This document shows positions 2,294 to 34,552 of a stretch of 42,371 bases of DNA, in pieces (positions within the stretch are counted from its first letter, which is position 1; every line of letters begins with the position of its first letter). Origin of the DNA: Halopseudomonas salina. GTDB taxonomy: Bacteria > Pseudomonadota > Gammaproteobacteria > Pseudomonadales > Pseudomonadaceae. The notes under the pieces are model-generated. The model saw only the letters and a list, made by a program, of their open reading frames with translations. It did no database searches and had not been told where the DNA came from. A program made the translations under genes and the position numbers. The stretch lies in assembly GCF_008641105.1 (NCBI RefSeq), contig NZ_VTTI01000012.1, positions 97,536 through 139,906 on the forward strand, written 5' to 3'.

Positions 2294-2322
2294 CGCAAGC
2301 CGCAAGCTTCAAGCGACAGAGC
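2294..2322 (+). repeat. Heptamer repeat, solo arm (copy A)
   Basis: CGCAAGC, CGCAAGC, TTCAAGC and GACAGAGC follow one another without break, giving three clean NNCAAGC heptamers and a decayed fourth. No facing GCTTGNN arm is found in the rest of the gap between comF and srkA, so this looks like a half-deleted copy of the elements at 4213, 13108, 27213, 31583 and 34447. Confidence 0.6.
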
Positions 2323-4212: not shown

Positions 4213-4343
4213 CAGCAGCCGCAAGCTTCAAGCTTCAAGTGACAAGCTGCGGGTGCTCTCGGCACCCTCAGGGTGTCCCCGATCAATTCGACTATCAGTG
4301 CGCACGGTCAGCTTGCTGCTTGAAGCTTGCCGCTTGCAGCTGT
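4213..4343. repeat. Heptamer inverted-repeat element, copy B (bioB-bioF)
   Basis: The left arm 4213-4252 is made of NNCAAGC units (CGCAAGC, TTCAAGC, TTCAAGT, GACAAGC). The right arm 4308-4343 is the facing series (CAGCTTG, CTGCTTG, AAGCTTG, CCGCTTG). The 55-base core has no gene. The right inner edge reads GCACGGTCAGCTTG (4302-4315), the motif shared with copies D, E and F. It fills nearly the whole gap between the bioB stop and the bioF start, so its transcript would form a long hairpin just before the bioF ribosome-binding region. Confidence 0.8.
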
Positions 4344-13107: not shown

Positions 13108-13368
13108 GCAGCGGCAAGCGGCAAGCTACAAGCTACAAGCGGCAAGCGGGAGTCTGGCTGAGTTGAGGTTCAGGTTTGTATCGAAAGAATCCGCCTGGAT
13201 TCCCGCCGAGGGTATGACGGAATCAGTTGGGTGCTGAAGACAATGGAGCAGGTGTTGCAGGGAGCGCACCATTAGAGTTAACAGGCCGCAGCGTGGCTTT
13301 GGCTTTGGCTTTTAGCTTGAGGCTTGCCGCTTGTAGCTTGCCGCTTGAGCCTAGCGGCTTGCCGCTTT
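13108..13368. repeat. Heptamer inverted-repeat element, copy C (pmbA-ptsO)
   Basis: The left arm 13108-13150 has GGCAAGC, GGCAAGC, TACAAGC, TACAAGC and GGCAAGC. The right arm about 13293-13368 has TGGCTTT repeats followed by TAGCTTG, AGGCTTG, CCGCTTG, TAGCTTG and CCGCTTG, running up to the ptsO stop codon. The core, about 142 bases, has no convincing gene. The directional motif found in copies B, D, E and F is not evident, so this copy may be older. It lies between convergent genes and fills the whole gap. Confidence 0.75.
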
Positions 13369-25904: not shown

Positions 25905-27215
25905 ATGAATGCACCGCTGAAAATTGCCCGTCTGGACGCCAGTCAGTCTGACTTCAGCCAGCATCTCGACACGTTGCTGGCCTGGGAAGGGGTATCGGAT
26001 AAAGGCGTCAACCAGCGTGTTGAAGAGATCATTGCTGCCGTGCGCGCACGGGGTGATGCTGCGCTGATCGAATATACCGCCCGTTTTGATGGGTTGGATG
26101 TCAGCTCCATGGCAGACCTGACCCTCGACCGTGCTCGGCTGGAGCTGGCGCTGGAGCGTATTACTCCAGAACAGCGAACGGCTCTCGAGTTTGCCGCCGA
26201 GCGAATTCGTGTGTATCACGAGCATCAGGTACAGCCTTCCTGGCGCTACACCGAGCCGGACGGCACCATTCTTGGCCAGCAGATTACACCGCTGGACCGC
26301 GCCGGCCTCTATGTGCCGGGTGGTAAAGCGTCTTACCCTTCGTCAGTGTTGATGAACGCGATTCCCGCCAAGGTAGCCGGTGTACGGGAAGTGGTCATGG
26401 TCGTGCCCACGCCCCGTGGCGAGATCAACGAGCTGGTGCTTGCCGCTGCTTGCCTGGCGGGCGTAGACCGCGTGTTTACCCTGGGTGGTGCTCAGGCGGT
26501 GGCGGCAATGGCCTACGGCACCGAGACCGTTCCGCGGGTGGACAAGATCGTCGGCCCAGGCAATATCTATGTAGCCACAGCCAAACGCTCGGTGTTCGGC
26601 CAGGTGGGAATCGACATGATTGCCGGCCCTTCCGAGATTCTGGTGGTGTGTGACGGTCAGACTGACCCGGACTGGATTGCGATGGATCTGTTCTCCCAGG
26701 CCGAACACGATGAGGATGCGCAGTCGATCCTGCTATCGCCGGATGCGGATTTTCTCGACGCCGTTGAAGCCAGTCTCAATCGTCTGCTTGACGGTCTTGA
26801 GCGGGCCGATATCGCCCGTGTTTCCCTGGAGAATCGCGGTGCGCTGATCAAGGTAGACAATCTGGAACACGCCTGCGAGGTGTCCAACCGCATCGCTCCA
26901 GAGCACCTGGAATTATCGGTAGCCGACCCGGAAAGCCTGTTGTCGCAGATTCGCCACGCAGGCGCCATCTTCATGGGCCGCTACACCCCCGAGGCAGTAG
27001 GCGATTATTGCGCCGGCCCGAACCACGTATTGCCTACCTCAGGCACGGCGCGCTTCTCCTCACCTCTGGGTGTCTATGACTTCCAGAAGCGCTCCTCGGT
27101 GATCTTCTGCTCACCCGAGGGTGCTTCCGAGCTGGGCAAAACAGCATCGGTACTGGCCCGCGGTGAAAGCCTGACAGCGCACGCGCGCAGTGCGGAATAC
27201 CGTATAAAGCCCTAG
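25905..27215 (+). CDS. hisD: Histidinol dehydrogenase
   Basis: 436 residues. A zinc enzyme that oxidises histidinol to histidine in two NAD-linked steps. The ATG at 25905 has AAAAGGTGA (25891-25899) upstream; a GTG at 25896 is part of that site. Motifs are [20 protein letters not shown] near residue 130, [28 protein letters not shown], and [13 protein letters not shown]. The zinc and catalytic residues are in [13 protein letters not shown] (Gln and His) and IAPEHLEL. The stop codon TAG is also the first bases of repeat copy D. Confidence 0.98.
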
Positions 27216-27360
27216 CTGCAAGCTGCAAGCTGCAAGCTACAAGCTACAAGCCAAAAGCCAAAAGCAGCAAGCTACAAGCACCAATAACCGTTCCGACGCT
27301 CGTCGCTGCAGTATGCACGGACGGCTTGCCGCTTGAAGCTTGCAGCTTGCAGCTTGAGGC
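27213..27360. repeat. Heptamer inverted-repeat element, copy D (hisD-hisC)
   Basis: The left arm 27213-27280 is the longest: CTGCAAG/CTACAAG heptamers, then two CCAAAAG units and CAGCAAGC, TACAAGC. The right arm 27321-27360 has CGGCTTG, CCGCTTG, AAGCTTG, CAGCTTG, CAGCTTG and AGGC. The core is 40 bases without a gene. The right inner edge is GCACGGACGGCTTG (27315-27328). The element begins in the hisD stop codon and ends 21 bases before the hisC start, so it fills the gap and probably sits inside the his transcript. Confidence 0.82.
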
Positions 27361-30663: not shown

Positions 30664-31569
30664 ATGCTGGAAAAACTGACTCATCTCAAGCAACTGGAAG
30701 CGGAAAGCATCCACATCATTCGTGAAGTGGCTGCGGAGTTTCAGAATCCGGTGATGCTCTACTCGATCGGCAAGGACTCCGCTGTAATGCTCCACCTGGC
30801 GCGCAAGGCCTTCTATCCTGGTCGCCTGCCGTTCCCGGTCCTGCACGTGGATACCGGCTGGAAGTTCCGCGAAATGTACAAGTTCCGCGAGCGCATGGTC
30901 GAAGAAATGGATCTCGACCTGCTGGTGCATCAGAACGCTGAAGGCCTGGCCCAGGGCGTAGGCCCCTTCACCCATGGCAGCGCCGTGCATACCGACGTGA
31001 TGAAGACCCAGGCGCTGAAGCAGGCCCTGGACAAGTACGGTTTTGACGCGGCCTTCGGTGGTGCCCGCCGTGACGAGGAAAAGTCCCGCGCCAAGGAGCG
31101 CGTCTACTCATTCCGCGACAAGCATCACCGCTGGGATCCCAAGAACCAGCGTCCCGAGCTGTGGAACGTCTATAACGGCAAAGTACACAAGGGCGAAAGC
31201 ATTCGCGTATTCCCCCTGTCCAACTGGACCGAACTCGACATCTGGCAATACATCTACCTGGAAAGCATCCCGATTGTGCCTCTGTACTTTGCCGCCGAAC
31301 GTCCGGTAGTCGAGCACAACGGCTCATTGATCATGGTCGATGACGAGCGCATGCCCATGGAAGAAGGTCAGAAGCCGGAAATGAAAATGGTTCGTTTCCG
31401 TACCCTGGGCTGTTACCCCCTCACCGGCGCCGTCGAATCCACCGCCGCCACGCTCCCGGAAATCATCCAGGAAATGCTCCTGACCCGTACATCCGAACGC
31501 CAGGGCCGCATGATCGATCATGATCAAGCCGGATCGATGGAAGAGAAGAAGAGGCAGGGCTATTTCTAG
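30664..31569 (+). CDS. cysD: Sulfate adenylyltransferase subunit 2
   Basis: 301 residues. The small, catalytic subunit of ATP sulfurylase, which with CysN makes APS from sulfate and ATP in assimilatory sulfate reduction. The PP-loop motif [18 protein letters not shown] is near residues 36-53, with [16 protein letters not shown] after it, [16 protein letters not shown] near 131, and [15 protein letters not shown]. Length is usual (about 300). The leader 30522-30663 is AT-rich around 30550-30620, but no convincing promoter or CysB site was identified. Normally cysN follows closely; here a 471-base repeat-bounded insert with its own gene separates them. Confidence 0.98.
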
Positions 31570-31582
31570 CGGTAGCTAAAAA

Positions 31583-32053
31583 AGCGGCAAGCCTCAAGCT
31601 GCAAGCGACAAGCAGATTGGAGCAGTCGCCGTATTTACGATTTATAACGGCAACATGGAGGTTGCTGATGGATTTTGAAAAGCTTGAGGTCTGGCATCGC
31701 AGCAAAGCGCTTTCGGTTGCCATGTATCGAGCGCTGGCAGACTGCCCGGATTATGGCTTCCGGAATCAACTGACGCGGTCTGCTCTATCCGTTCCAAGCA
31801 ATATCGCCGAGGGAATGGAGAGAGCTGGCAATGCAGAGAAGCGTTACTTTCTCAGCGTTGCCAAAGGGTCTTGCGCAGAAGTGCGCACGCAGCTGATGGT
31901 AGGACAAGAGATTGATTACGTGGAGCAGGCGTTTGCCGCGCATTGGATCCATGAAACACGCGAGCTGTCGCGAATGCTGACAGGCTTGATTAATAGAATT
32001 ACTGAATAATTGCACGGACAGCTTGCCGCTTGTCGCTTGCAGCTTGGAGCTTG
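31583..32053. mobile_element. Repeat-bounded element carrying a four-helix-bundle gene (copy E, cysD-cysNC)
   Basis: The left arm 31583-31613 has GGCAAGC, CTCAAGC, TGCAAGC and GACAAGC. The right arm 32019-32053 has CAGCTTG, CCGCTTG, TCGCTTG, CAGCTTG and GAGCTTG. Read inward, GGCAAGC, GACAAGC and TGCAAGC of one arm are mirrored in the other, so they can pair. The core of 405 bases is filled by one gene (31668-32009) whose stop is two bases before the inner motif GCACGGACAGCTTG (32012-32025). The start of cysNC lies four bases after the right arm. GCCGT...ACGGC (31628-31651) may form a small hairpin ahead of the gene. Mobility is inferred from dispersal of gene-free copies and from insertion in a normally tight operon. 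Confidence 0.65.
31668..32009 (+). CDS. Four-helix-bundle protein (S23 / 23S rRNA intervening-sequence protein family)
   Basis: 113 residues from ATG at 31668, with GGAGG (31657-31661) six bases upstream; the longer frame to 31617 has no ribosome site. The sequence starts MDFEKLEVWHRSKALSVAMY and includes DYGFRNQLTRSALSVPSNIA, EGMERAGNAEKRYFLSVAKG and CAEVRTQLMVGQEIDY, the classic run of this family. Members occur in intervening sequences of 23S rRNA genes and resemble bAvd, the accessory RNA-binding protein of diversity-generating retroelements. Structures are pentameric barrels with a basic surface. The exact function is not known. Here the gene is the only content of an inverted-repeat element inside the cys operon. 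No reverse transcriptase lies in the window. Confidence 0.92.
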   Translation: MDFEKLEVWHRSKALSVAMYRALADCPDYGFRNQLTRSALSVPSNIAEGMERAGNAEKRYFLSVAKGSCAEVRTQLMVGQEIDYVEQAFAAHWIHETRELSRMLTGLINRITE

Positions 32054-32057
32054 GAAC

Positions 32058-33965
32058 ATGAGTCACCAATCAGAACTGATCAGCGAAGATATCCTGGCGT
32101 ACCTCGGCCAGCACGAACGCAAGGAACTGCTGCGTTTTCTTACCTGCGGTAACGTCGACGACGGCAAGAGCACGCTGATCGGGCGTTTGCTGCATGATTC
32201 CAAGATGATCTACGAAGATCATATGGAAGCCATTACCCGCGACTCCAAGAAGTCTGGCACCACCGGTGAAGAGGTCGATCTGGCGCTGCTGGTCGATGGT
32301 CTGCAGGCCGAGCGCGAGCAGGGCATCACCATTGACGTTGCCTACCGCTATTTCTCGACCGCCAAGCGCAAGTTCATCATCGCCGATACCCCCGGCCATG
32401 AGCAGTACACCCGCAACATGGCCACCGGTGCCTCGACCTGTGATCTGGCGATCATCCTGATCGACGCCCGTTACGGCGTGCAGACCCAGACCAAGCGCCA
32501 CAGCTTTATCGCCTCCTTGCTGGGTATCAAGCATATCGTTGTTGCAGTAAACAAGATGGATCTGAAGGACTTCGATGAAGGCGTCTTCAATCAGATCTGT
32601 GACGACTACCGCGAGTTTGCCAAGGGCTTGGAAATGCTCGACGGCAATAGCGTACATTTCGTGCCGATGTCTGCACTCAAGGGCGACAACGTCGTCAACC
32701 GTAGCGAGCGCAGCCCCTGGTATACCGGCCAGACCCTGATGGAGATCCTCGAGACCGTTGAAGTCGCCGCCGATCGCAACCTCAAGGATCTGCGTTTCCC
32801 GGTCCAGCTGGTTACCCGGCCGAACCTTAACTTCCGCGGCTTTGCCGGCACCCTGGCATCCGGTGTCGTGCACAAGGGTGATGAGTTGGTCGTATTGCCA
32901 TCGGGCAAGAGCAGTCGGGTCAAATCCATTGTCACCTTCGACGGAGAGCTGGAAAGCGCCGGTCCTGGTCAGGCAGTGACGCTGACCCTGGAAGACGAAA
33001 TCGACATCTCCCGTGGCGACGTGCTCGCGCATATCGACAACCGCCCCCTGATCGGCGATCTGTTTGAAGCCAATCTGGTGTGGATGGCCGACCAGCCGAT
33101 GCAGCCGGGCCGCAAGTACGATATCAAGCGAGCAACCAGCAACAGCCCGGGCTCCTTTACCCGGATCGTACACCGCATCGACGTCAATACGCTGGAAAAA
33201 CAGGATGCGCCCGAACTGGGTCTGAACGAGATCGGCCGCGTCGAGTTATCCCTTGAGCGTCCGATTGCCTATGACGACTACCGGGCCAACCGCACCAGCG
33301 GCTCGTTTATCGTCATCGACCGCATGACCAATGGCACCGTTGGCGCCGGCATGATTGTCGCCAAGGGCCTGTTGGGTCAGAACACCACCGGTAGCCGCCA
33401 TGGCGGGTTCGCCCATGTGACTGCCAGCGAACGCGCGCAGCGTTTCGGCCAGGAGCCGGTTACTCTGCTGTTTACCGGTCTTTCCGGTGCCGGCAAGAGC
33501 ACCCTGGCCTATGCGGTTGAACGCAAACTGTTCGACAGCGGCCGTGCCTGCTACGTGCTCGATGGCAAGGAGTTGCGTCAGGATCTGAGCAAGGGGCTGA
33601 CACAGGATGCCGCTGGCCGCGCCGAGAATCTGCACAAGGGCGCACGTATTGCCCGGCAGATGAACGAAGCCGGACTGATCGCGCTGGGAGCCTTCGTGGC
33701 TCCGACCGCGGAAAGCCGCGCTCAGGCCCGTTACATTCTGGGTGAGCGCTGCTTGATGGTGTATCTGGATACACCCATGGACGTCTGCCAGGAACGTGAT
33801 CCTTCCGGTCTGTATGCAGCTAATGCCGAAGGCACCATACCGGGCGTTTCCTATCCGTACGAAGCTCCGGCTGATGCGGATCTGGTGTTGGACACCAGCA
33901 AGCAGAATCTGGAGACCTGCGTTGCCGAGGTGATAGAGCTGCTCAGAACCCGCAAGTTGATCTGA
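32058..33965 (+). CDS. cysNC: Bifunctional sulfate adenylyltransferase subunit 1 / adenylylsulfate kinase
   Basis: 635 residues. A fusion of the GTPase subunit of ATP sulfurylase (CysN) and APS kinase (CysC), giving APS and then PAPS. The CysN part has [19 protein letters not shown] near residue 30, [17 protein letters not shown] and VNKMDLKDF. Elongation-factor-like beta barrels follow to about residue 440. The kinase part has [20 protein letters not shown] near 472-491 and [14 protein letters not shown]. The ATG at 32058 gives [20 protein letters not shown]; upstream in-frame codons lie in the repeat arm of copy E. GGAG at 32046-32049 may be the ribosome site and is part of that arm, so the insertion may have supplied or replaced it. 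Confidence 0.97.
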
Positions 33966-34446: not shown

Positions 34447-34552
34447 ACAGCGGCAAGCGGCAAGCGGCAAGCTGTCCCTGCCCACTCAGATCCAGGGGTA
34501 GAGGTTTGGTCTAGGGTTTTCTTGCAGCTTGCCGCTTGAAGCTTGCAGCTGG
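34447..34552. repeat. Heptamer inverted-repeat element, copy F (tadA-mltF), reversed
   Basis: The left arm 34447-34474 has GGCAAGC three times. The right arm 34519-34552 has CAGCTTG, CCGCTTG, AAGCTTG and CAGCTGG. The core is 44 bases. The inner motif is on the left here: CAAGCTGTCCCTGC (34468-34481), the reverse complement of GCAGGGACAGCTTG and one base from that of copy E. So this copy lies in the opposite orientation. It sits between convergent genes, directly next to the long hairpin at 34556-34589. Confidence 0.8.

Follow-up and report, generated by a model that had tools for sequence, protein, structure and literature searches.

An S23-family gene within facing heptamer arms between cysD and cysNC and its relation to dispersed heptamer arrays

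Why should a small gene of the S23 family, enclosed by facing repeats of seven-base period, lie between cysD and cysNC, which encode two subunits of one enzyme? We examined this locus in a 42,371-nt stretch of Halopseudomonas salina DNA (the window). An earlier note, made from the letters alone, had described facing heptamer arms around one S23 gene, a stop codon two bases from an inner-edge motif and the separation of cysD from cysNC by this gene. Profile matches, a repeat search and a check of the letters bore out all three points and gave the following features:

30664..31569, + strand: cysD (sulfate adenylyltransferase small subunit), left neighbour (NF009214/TIGR02039, 542/538 bits)
31581..31613, + strand: left (5′) arm, five period-7 cores, AAAGC and then four CAAGC (letters, repeat search)
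31657..31661, + strand: GGAGG, probably the site at which ribosomes bind for S23 translation (letters; putative role)
31668..32009, + strand: gene of an S23-family four-helix-bundle protein, 113 aa, ATG at 31668, TAA at 32007-32009 (PF05635, NF008912)
32012..32020, + strand: GCACGGACA, inner-edge motif between stop codon and right arm (letters)
32021..32053, - strand: right (3′) arm, which faces the left one and has five GCTTG cores (letters, repeat search)
32046..32049, + strand: GGAG, likely ribosome-binding site of cysNC (putative role), within the right arm (letters, fold)
32058..33965, + strand: cysNC, right neighbour (NF004035, 965 bits)

The perfect CAAGC cores of the left arm start at 31588, 31595, 31602 and 31609, after AAAGC at 31581, and positions 31588-31613 and 32028-32053 are 92% complementary. 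The element is located between cysD and cysNC and not within a 23S rRNA gene; hence it is not itself a 23S rRNA intervening sequence (IVS). Among 52 right and 52 left inner edges, 6 and 1, respectively, carry GCACGGACA with at most one mismatch; some of the scored edges are orthologous, and the background is about 0.00085 per edge. In the window, motifs of this kind are seen just inside right arms at 32012-32020, 27315-27323 and 4302-4310.

The S23 protein of the window matched PF05635 with 101.9 bits (cut-off 33.8) and NF008912 with 155.7 bits. Its predicted model (pLDDT 94) has four helices and resembles 2gsc and 2rld, with TM scores (query) of 0.89 and 0.81; both entries contain five chains and carry titles of unknown function. 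The next fold was that of Avd (PDB 4dwl and 8ub7; TM about 0.75, about 15% identity). Avd of diversity-generating retroelements is a pentamer that acts with RNA and reverse transcriptase; the likeness of S23 to it is one of fold, the only aspect compared. According to the excerpted text of PMC4990558, XCC0516 (2gsc) is a toroidal homopentamer. Family profiles and fold comparison matched the window protein to no transposase, nuclease or other catalytic family. Between the window and L001, the S23 gene gave dN 0.065 and dS 2.0, the latter near saturation, and the intact pairs tested had dN/dS ratios of about 0.03-0.09, which places the gene under purifying selection there; in some lineages it is decaying. 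An in-frame stop was seen in the S23 copy of G003 (L084/L003) and split matches in G004 (L086), G144 (L101) and G139 (L102); all four genomes retain arrays.

We then considered the transcript. For the RNA of 31567-32070 the predicted structure, in which the two arms pair, has an energy of -205.9 kcal/mol (z -5.35); in the same prediction none of 100 shuffles was as stable. In the predicted RNA the complementary termini pair around the S23 ORF in a 25-bp stem (31588-31592/32049-32053 plus 31594-31613/32028-32047). Three of the four bases of the GGAG at 32046-32049 are paired in this predicted stem and the AUG at 32058 is unpaired; as modelled, the arm stem likely covers the putative ribosome-binding site of cysNC.

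A comparable arrangement is described for the 23S rRNA IVS of Coxiella burnetii in the extracts of PMC4990558 used here: an S23 ORF lies within complementary termini that form a 28-bp stem, the 5′ arm carries tandem GACAGAT heptamers in varying number upstream of the ORF, and RNase III cuts the stem at the first GACAGAT heptamer. In the same extracts the authors consider the RNA more important than the S23 protein, which they think is not made in Coxiella. Like this IVS, as far as the excerpted text describes it, the window element encloses an S23 ORF in complementary, heptamer-bearing termini; unlike a 23S rRNA IVS, it stands between protein-coding genes and its heptamer is common to many gene-less arrays in related genomes. 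The Coxiella heptamers fit the S23-heptamer pattern reported below, and the extracts treat this one case and draw no general link between S23 and heptamers.

Is the S23 gene a fixed part of the cys operon? A profile search of genome contigs gave 185 confirmed loci, and among the best 80 of them cysD and cysN were both matched around S23 in 72, with facing CAAGC doublets within 200 nt of S23 in 56; other loci at the cysD-cysN site bear other heptamers. In the 148-genome family of G001 (the genome of L001), PF05635 was matched above cut-off in 22 genomes, one match per genome, and 125 genomes had no match. cysD was present in all 30 of the S23-negative genomes searched (30 of the 125, 21 of them chosen for having arrays). 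The empty sites that the earlier note had proposed to look for in relatives were found in 29 of these 30, where the cysD-cysN gap measured 4-39 bp. In G086 (L131), in which S23 is absent and 67 CAAGC triplets are present, the gap is 158 bp and the leftover ends in an array-like stretch, probably a trace of S23 loss. At least 15 changes of S23 state are needed on a 51-genome tree of CysD-CysN, and a single origin of the cysDN-type S23 was not rejected (p-AU 0.37; 85 S23 proteins, 33 cysDN against 52). The genomes G002 and G003 are only 84% identical where aligned, too little to place a clean border or to recognise a target duplication; the comparison for a target duplication as a whole met flanks too diverged to define one.

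These observations bear on the idea that S23 is a dedicated gene of the cys operon, for instance a regulator of CysDN. The 72 of the best 80 loci and the single origin not rejected for cysDN-type copies speak for it. Against it stand the 125 of 148 family genomes without PF05635, with cysD in 30 of 30 searched, and the recurrence of the same layout in other operons, such as L192. We consider this explanation very unlikely. At L192 (G423 C17), S23 with GGGATTC arms lies between genes read by eye as accB and accC; if so, two subunits of one enzyme are split again.

We therefore examined S23 genes elsewhere, the loci tested for arms being mostly the best-scoring ones of each search. In the phylum of G001, 48 of 299 genomes have a PF05635 match above cut-off; in that of L079's genome (record titled Verrucomicrobia) the figure is 71 of 115. 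In the latter phylum up to 18 matches per genome were seen (G441, G472, G499, G495), some of them maybe split. At the flanks of 142 S23 loci the mean period-7 score was 0.69, compared with 0.44 at 358 control ORFs drawn from the same loci, and periods 5, 6 and 8-11 scored 0.41-0.48 in the same test. The control 95th percentile for period 7 was exceeded in 91.5% of the 142 loci, and the median inverted-repeat score was 15 at S23 flanks and 8 at controls. This set, namely 148 loci minus L103, L204 and L205 (no S23 match) and three with a short flank or N runs, contains many orthologous Pseudomonas cysDN copies that are not independent.

A set of 71 diverse loci was examined for matching between the two arms. 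The match of a locus to its own opposite arm was 16.8, against 8.6 with shuffled partners (largest of 2000 shuffles 10.1), and the inverted match beat the direct one in 57 of 71 loci, the direct being better in 14. The 71 loci represent 70 distinct places, since L071 and L201 are identical; L173 and L174 have a common left flank, and the left flanks of L186 and L230 coincide over their last 60 bases. In a set of 30 loci from L079's phylum, one of which (L246) overlaps L220 of the 71-locus set, own arms scored 16.6 against 8.6 for shuffled ones (largest shuffle 10.6) and the period-7 score was 0.68 against 0.44 elsewhere in the same loci, with 73% of the 30 above the control 95th percentile. 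Both arms exceeded the array threshold in 42/71 and 20/30 loci, at least one arm in 61/71 and 24/30, and neither in 10/71 and 6/30; arms are thus weak or absent in a minority of S23 genes. The heptamers vary widely (TAGGCAG, GTGAGGC, GGGATTC, GGCGAAT, GGAGAAC, AGTGGCT and others), and among above-threshold arms 46 of 49 left ones were purine-rich and 43 of 54 right ones pyrimidine-rich. To the question raised in the earlier note, whether family members elsewhere carry such arms, the answer in the two phyla tested is mostly yes for facing period-7 arms, the heptamers themselves differing. A restriction of the arms to cysDN was rejected, S23 loci elsewhere in both phyla being mostly armed too.

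Orientation was counted at 70 loci: S23 shares the strand of its two neighbours in 53, opposes the two of them in 4 and has one on each strand in 13, neighbours being the longest ORFs and not curated genes, and one place being counted twice. Such a sense bias does not fit strand-blind insertion and points to action at the level of RNA or to dependence on the host promoter. A search of 16 S23 loci, mostly weak-armed, for RNA families showed no rRNA and one JUMPstart element, in L099. No recent S23 duplicates were found among 13 multi-copy genomes compared. Apparent duplicates, namely identical S23 pairs in G360 and an identical stretch of L169 and L239 in G268, were discarded as the same places taken twice.

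The CAAGC heptamer is not confined to the S23 arms: the window contains 34 copies of CAAGCNNCAAGC, where 0.17 would be expected, and the repeat search located arrays at the following places:

2296..2314, + strand: single CAAGC array of three cores
4222..4336, no strand assigned: gene-less facing array pair
13115..13347, no strand assigned: gene-less facing array pair
27212..27356, no strand assigned: gene-less facing array pair
34454..34552, no strand assigned: gene-less facing array pair, between a tadA-like ORF and a convergent ORF

At the place in G005 that is syntenic to 34454..34552 there is no CAAGC array. Period-7 arrays are present in many places, their position outside genes having been read for the window. 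In genome counts, which are of overlapping triplets so that long arrays weigh more, the median number of CAAGC triplets was 60 in the 22 S23-positive and 1 in the 125 S23-negative genomes of the 148-genome family. At least ten CAAGC triplets on both strands were found in 15 of the 22 but in only 3 of the 125 (G009, G086, G142).

Is the prevailing motif that of the genome's own S23 arms? In 20 of 21 S23-positive genomes the arm motif outnumbered the other three motifs counted genome-wide, a value reached in none of 20000 shuffles; G052 (match below cut-off) and G069 (L099, with no cysD, cysN or S23 match) were left out. For ten genomes with arms other than CAAGC, the arm motifs were written down before the genome counts: GAAGC in G068, G140, G084, G045, G111 and G006, CAGGC in G064 and G144, and GAGGC in G033 and G027. 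The prediction held in nine of the ten, the miss in G027 being 61 against 62; the GAGGC result of G033 rests on six matches within 130 bp. For G026, G125, G139 and G141 the CAAGC type was assigned only once the counts were known.

Other heptamers gave related results in the 299 genomes. TAGGCAG triplets were found in 9 of 52 S23-positive genomes (lenient threshold) versus 1 of 247 others, and each of the nine has, among the places listed, some away from S23 arms. GGGANTC triplets were found in five of the 299 (Fisher p 0.04): G423, whose S23 arms are GGGATTC, has 242, with 219 on one strand and a long array among them; the S23-positive G296 and G234 have 8 and 1, and G266 and G043, both without S23, have 8 and 3.

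The association is not absolute. Eight genomes are array-rich with no detectable S23 (G112, G131, G086, G009, G122, G072, G107 and G142), and a family profile search for a hidden S23 in 12 array-bearing, PF05635-negative genomes found none at E values up to 1; arrays therefore need no present-day S23 gene. In the 51-genome tree, for which S23-negative genomes had been picked as array-rich, at least 20 triplets in all were present in 19 of 21 S23-positive and 10 of 30 S23-negative genomes. Phylogeny-corrected pairs, of which only four were supported, gave 2.0 the same way and 0.1 the opposite way; shared ancestry may therefore account for some of the association.

We next analyzed array size in a survey of 2.2 Mb (the window plus parts of six related genomes). 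With the outer cap left uncounted, three cores were seen in 10 of 125 CAAGC arrays, four in 52, five in 41 and six in only 4. An outer AGCNN cap beyond the outermost core was present in 59 of 104 arms of facing pairs; 35 of the 59 capped arms have four CAAGC-type cores and 29 of the 45 uncapped ones five, so that with the cap counted exactly five cores are found in 64 of the 104, arms that come from 24 sites and are read by a cap rule noticed in the data before being counted. Once the cap had been noticed, five as the mode took the place of our initial "four or five" cores. At one element per site (48 arms), 25 arms have five cores and 11 have four; six cores are found in 5 arms and larger numbers in 7. 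The S23 arms of all motifs likewise peak at a length of 30-31 nt in both S23-arm sets (arrays of 28-34 nt: 40/103 and 29/44), which is the length of five short cores at period seven. The recount by site weakens, and the published homopentamer strengthens, the match of five cores to five subunits; together they leave our estimate where it was. A 14-core CAAGC array was observed in G001 (L114:4212-4307).

Neighbouring arrays less than 700 bp apart comprised 52 facing pairs, 2 and 1 in the two same-way arrangements and no diverging pair. The 52 facing pairs occupy 24 sites, and clustering of the inserts showed no sharing between these distinct sites beyond one weak stretch. Across 107 pair comparisons, reciprocals being counted twice, the insert was kept in 46, inverted in 2 (one site), unrelated in 8 and unclassed in 51. 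Further site comparisons showed half an array pair in 34 and no CAAGC array in 32, and at one CAAGC-less site the other genome bears a facing array of another motif. The inverted insert, with arms and flanks kept, was seen in G003 C1:258632-258774 (L303) relative to G002 C12 (position 68146 of the joined survey piece); facing arrays may support inversion.

What, then, is the element at 31581-32053? On balance we think it probable that an S23 intervening element lies here within an mRNA, with arms that would be read by a pentamer of S23. The cysD, S23 and cysNC genes would be co-transcribed and the arm stem would loop out the S23 gene, as an rRNA IVS loops out of 23S rRNA. S23 would form a five-subunit ring, each subunit reading one core, and such a ring could bind its own arms and also the dispersed gene-less arrays of the same heptamer, altering the pairing, processing or translation of array-bearing transcripts. 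At the cys operon this would influence whether the RNA between cysD and cysNC pairs or is cut, and how accessible the cysNC start is. The one-core-per-subunit scheme is suggested by TRAP, an eleven-subunit ring in which each subunit binds one triplet repeat, with variable spacers, and which hides or frees a ribosome-binding site. TRAP is unrelated to S23 and differs in having eleven subunits and triplets; the likeness is a proposal resting on the match of numbers. The earlier note had imagined a protein-coding analogue of an IVS in an mRNA, its hairpin or protein acting on spread or on processing. The analogy has gained from the predicted arm pairing, the sense placement and, in the excerpted text, the Coxiella heptamers; a simple transposon-like spread has lost ground, the inserts being unshared.

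That spread would be expected if the S23 unit were an autonomous DNA transposon and the gene-less facing arrays its MITE- or REPIN-like derivatives. Terminal repeats that face each other, and array sites present or absent between relatives, are what transposition would give. Moreover, REPIN/RAYT systems combine a single gene, the RAYT transposase, with many dispersed paired repeats per genome, and here too one S23 gene per genome accompanies many dispersed paired repeats of matching sequence. Unlike RAYT, S23 is a plain four-helix bundle resembling XCC0516 and Avd that matches no nuclease, transposase or other catalytic family, and the array inserts are site-specific. The MITE reading was dropped as the lead because gene-less inserts are unshared between the 24 sites (one weak match); the sense bias of 53 against 4 also argues against transposition, as does the comparison of 13 multi-copy genomes, which showed no identical copies of recent origin. 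The flanks are too diverged to define a target duplication. We regard this explanation as quite improbable. A different objection is that the arrays are products of host slippage or recombination, S23 merely adopting the prevailing heptamer and the co-occurrence reflecting shared ancestry. Array triplets that persist in S23-negative genomes, turnover in place (the same site bearing different motifs and inserts in relatives), the insert inverted between its arms and a phylogenetic test underpowered at four supported pairs all agree with this. Slippage, however, predicts a falling length distribution, whereas core numbers peak at four to five (five with the cap) and the commonest length of S23 arms, which differ widely in motif, is 30-31 nt in each of the two sets. 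Neighbouring arrays, moreover, face each other in 52 cases and diverge in none. We hold it to be unlikely.

The arms could also be mere terminator-like or mRNA-stabilising hairpins whose sequence has no specific meaning. One pair in the window does lie between convergent ORFs and the predicted stem is stable, but a period of seven, a typical core number and a motif that is particular to the genome and recurs in its S23 arms are not needed for a plain hairpin. We find this explanation hardly credible. The recurrence of this layout at many S23 genes of the two phyla sampled, with arm motifs that match repeats dispersed through the genomes, suggests that the orphan S23 family and the dispersed heptamer repeats belong together.

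Dispersed heptamers have been reported from other bacteria. Cyanobacteria carry dispersed heptamer repeats known as STRR. The excerpted text of Rehm et al. describes Xanthomonas GGGAATC arrays, mostly of four units, with 70 and 75 convergent pairs (PMC4692102), that of PMC4679880 the TAACTGA heptamer repeats of Beggiatoaceae, and that of PMC4853749, in which 'four helix' and 'IVP' do not occur, 1175 TAACTGA copies in Thiomargarita. As in these extracts on Xanthomonas and Beggiatoaceae, where the repeats are mostly intergenic, the arrays here have a period of seven and are many per genome. The same extracts propose G-quadruplex or regulatory roles (PMC4692102, PMC4679880); unlike in those reports, the motif here goes with the arms that flank S23 in the same genome. 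The terms 'four-helix', 'S23', 'intervening' and 'IVS' are absent from the main texts of PMC4692102 and PMC4679880, and none of the papers listed in a search of open-licence PMC papers links S23 genes to dispersed heptamer arrays.

More broadly, S23 proteins could be the missing partner of bacterial dispersed heptamer repeats in general, a pentamer reading five cores in a code private to each genome. We offer this tentatively, as a possibility a little short of what we would call probable; it would extend to CAAGCNN, TAGGCAG and GGGANTC and perhaps to TAACTGA and the cyanobacterial repeats. If it is true, protein and repeat change jointly in each genome's private code, first met as an oddity of fragmented 23S rRNA. 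Two puzzles, the role of the S23 protein and the origin of bacterial heptamer repeats, would then become a single testable question. The family would also offer new rings that recognise RNA or DNA sequences with a fixed number of repeats, and would account for a class of stem-loops within operons that may set the expression of one enzyme subunit apart from that of another. Very long arrays were seen as well: in G002, from C2:243467 onward, one run makes up the listed part of the 104 forward GAGGC triplets.
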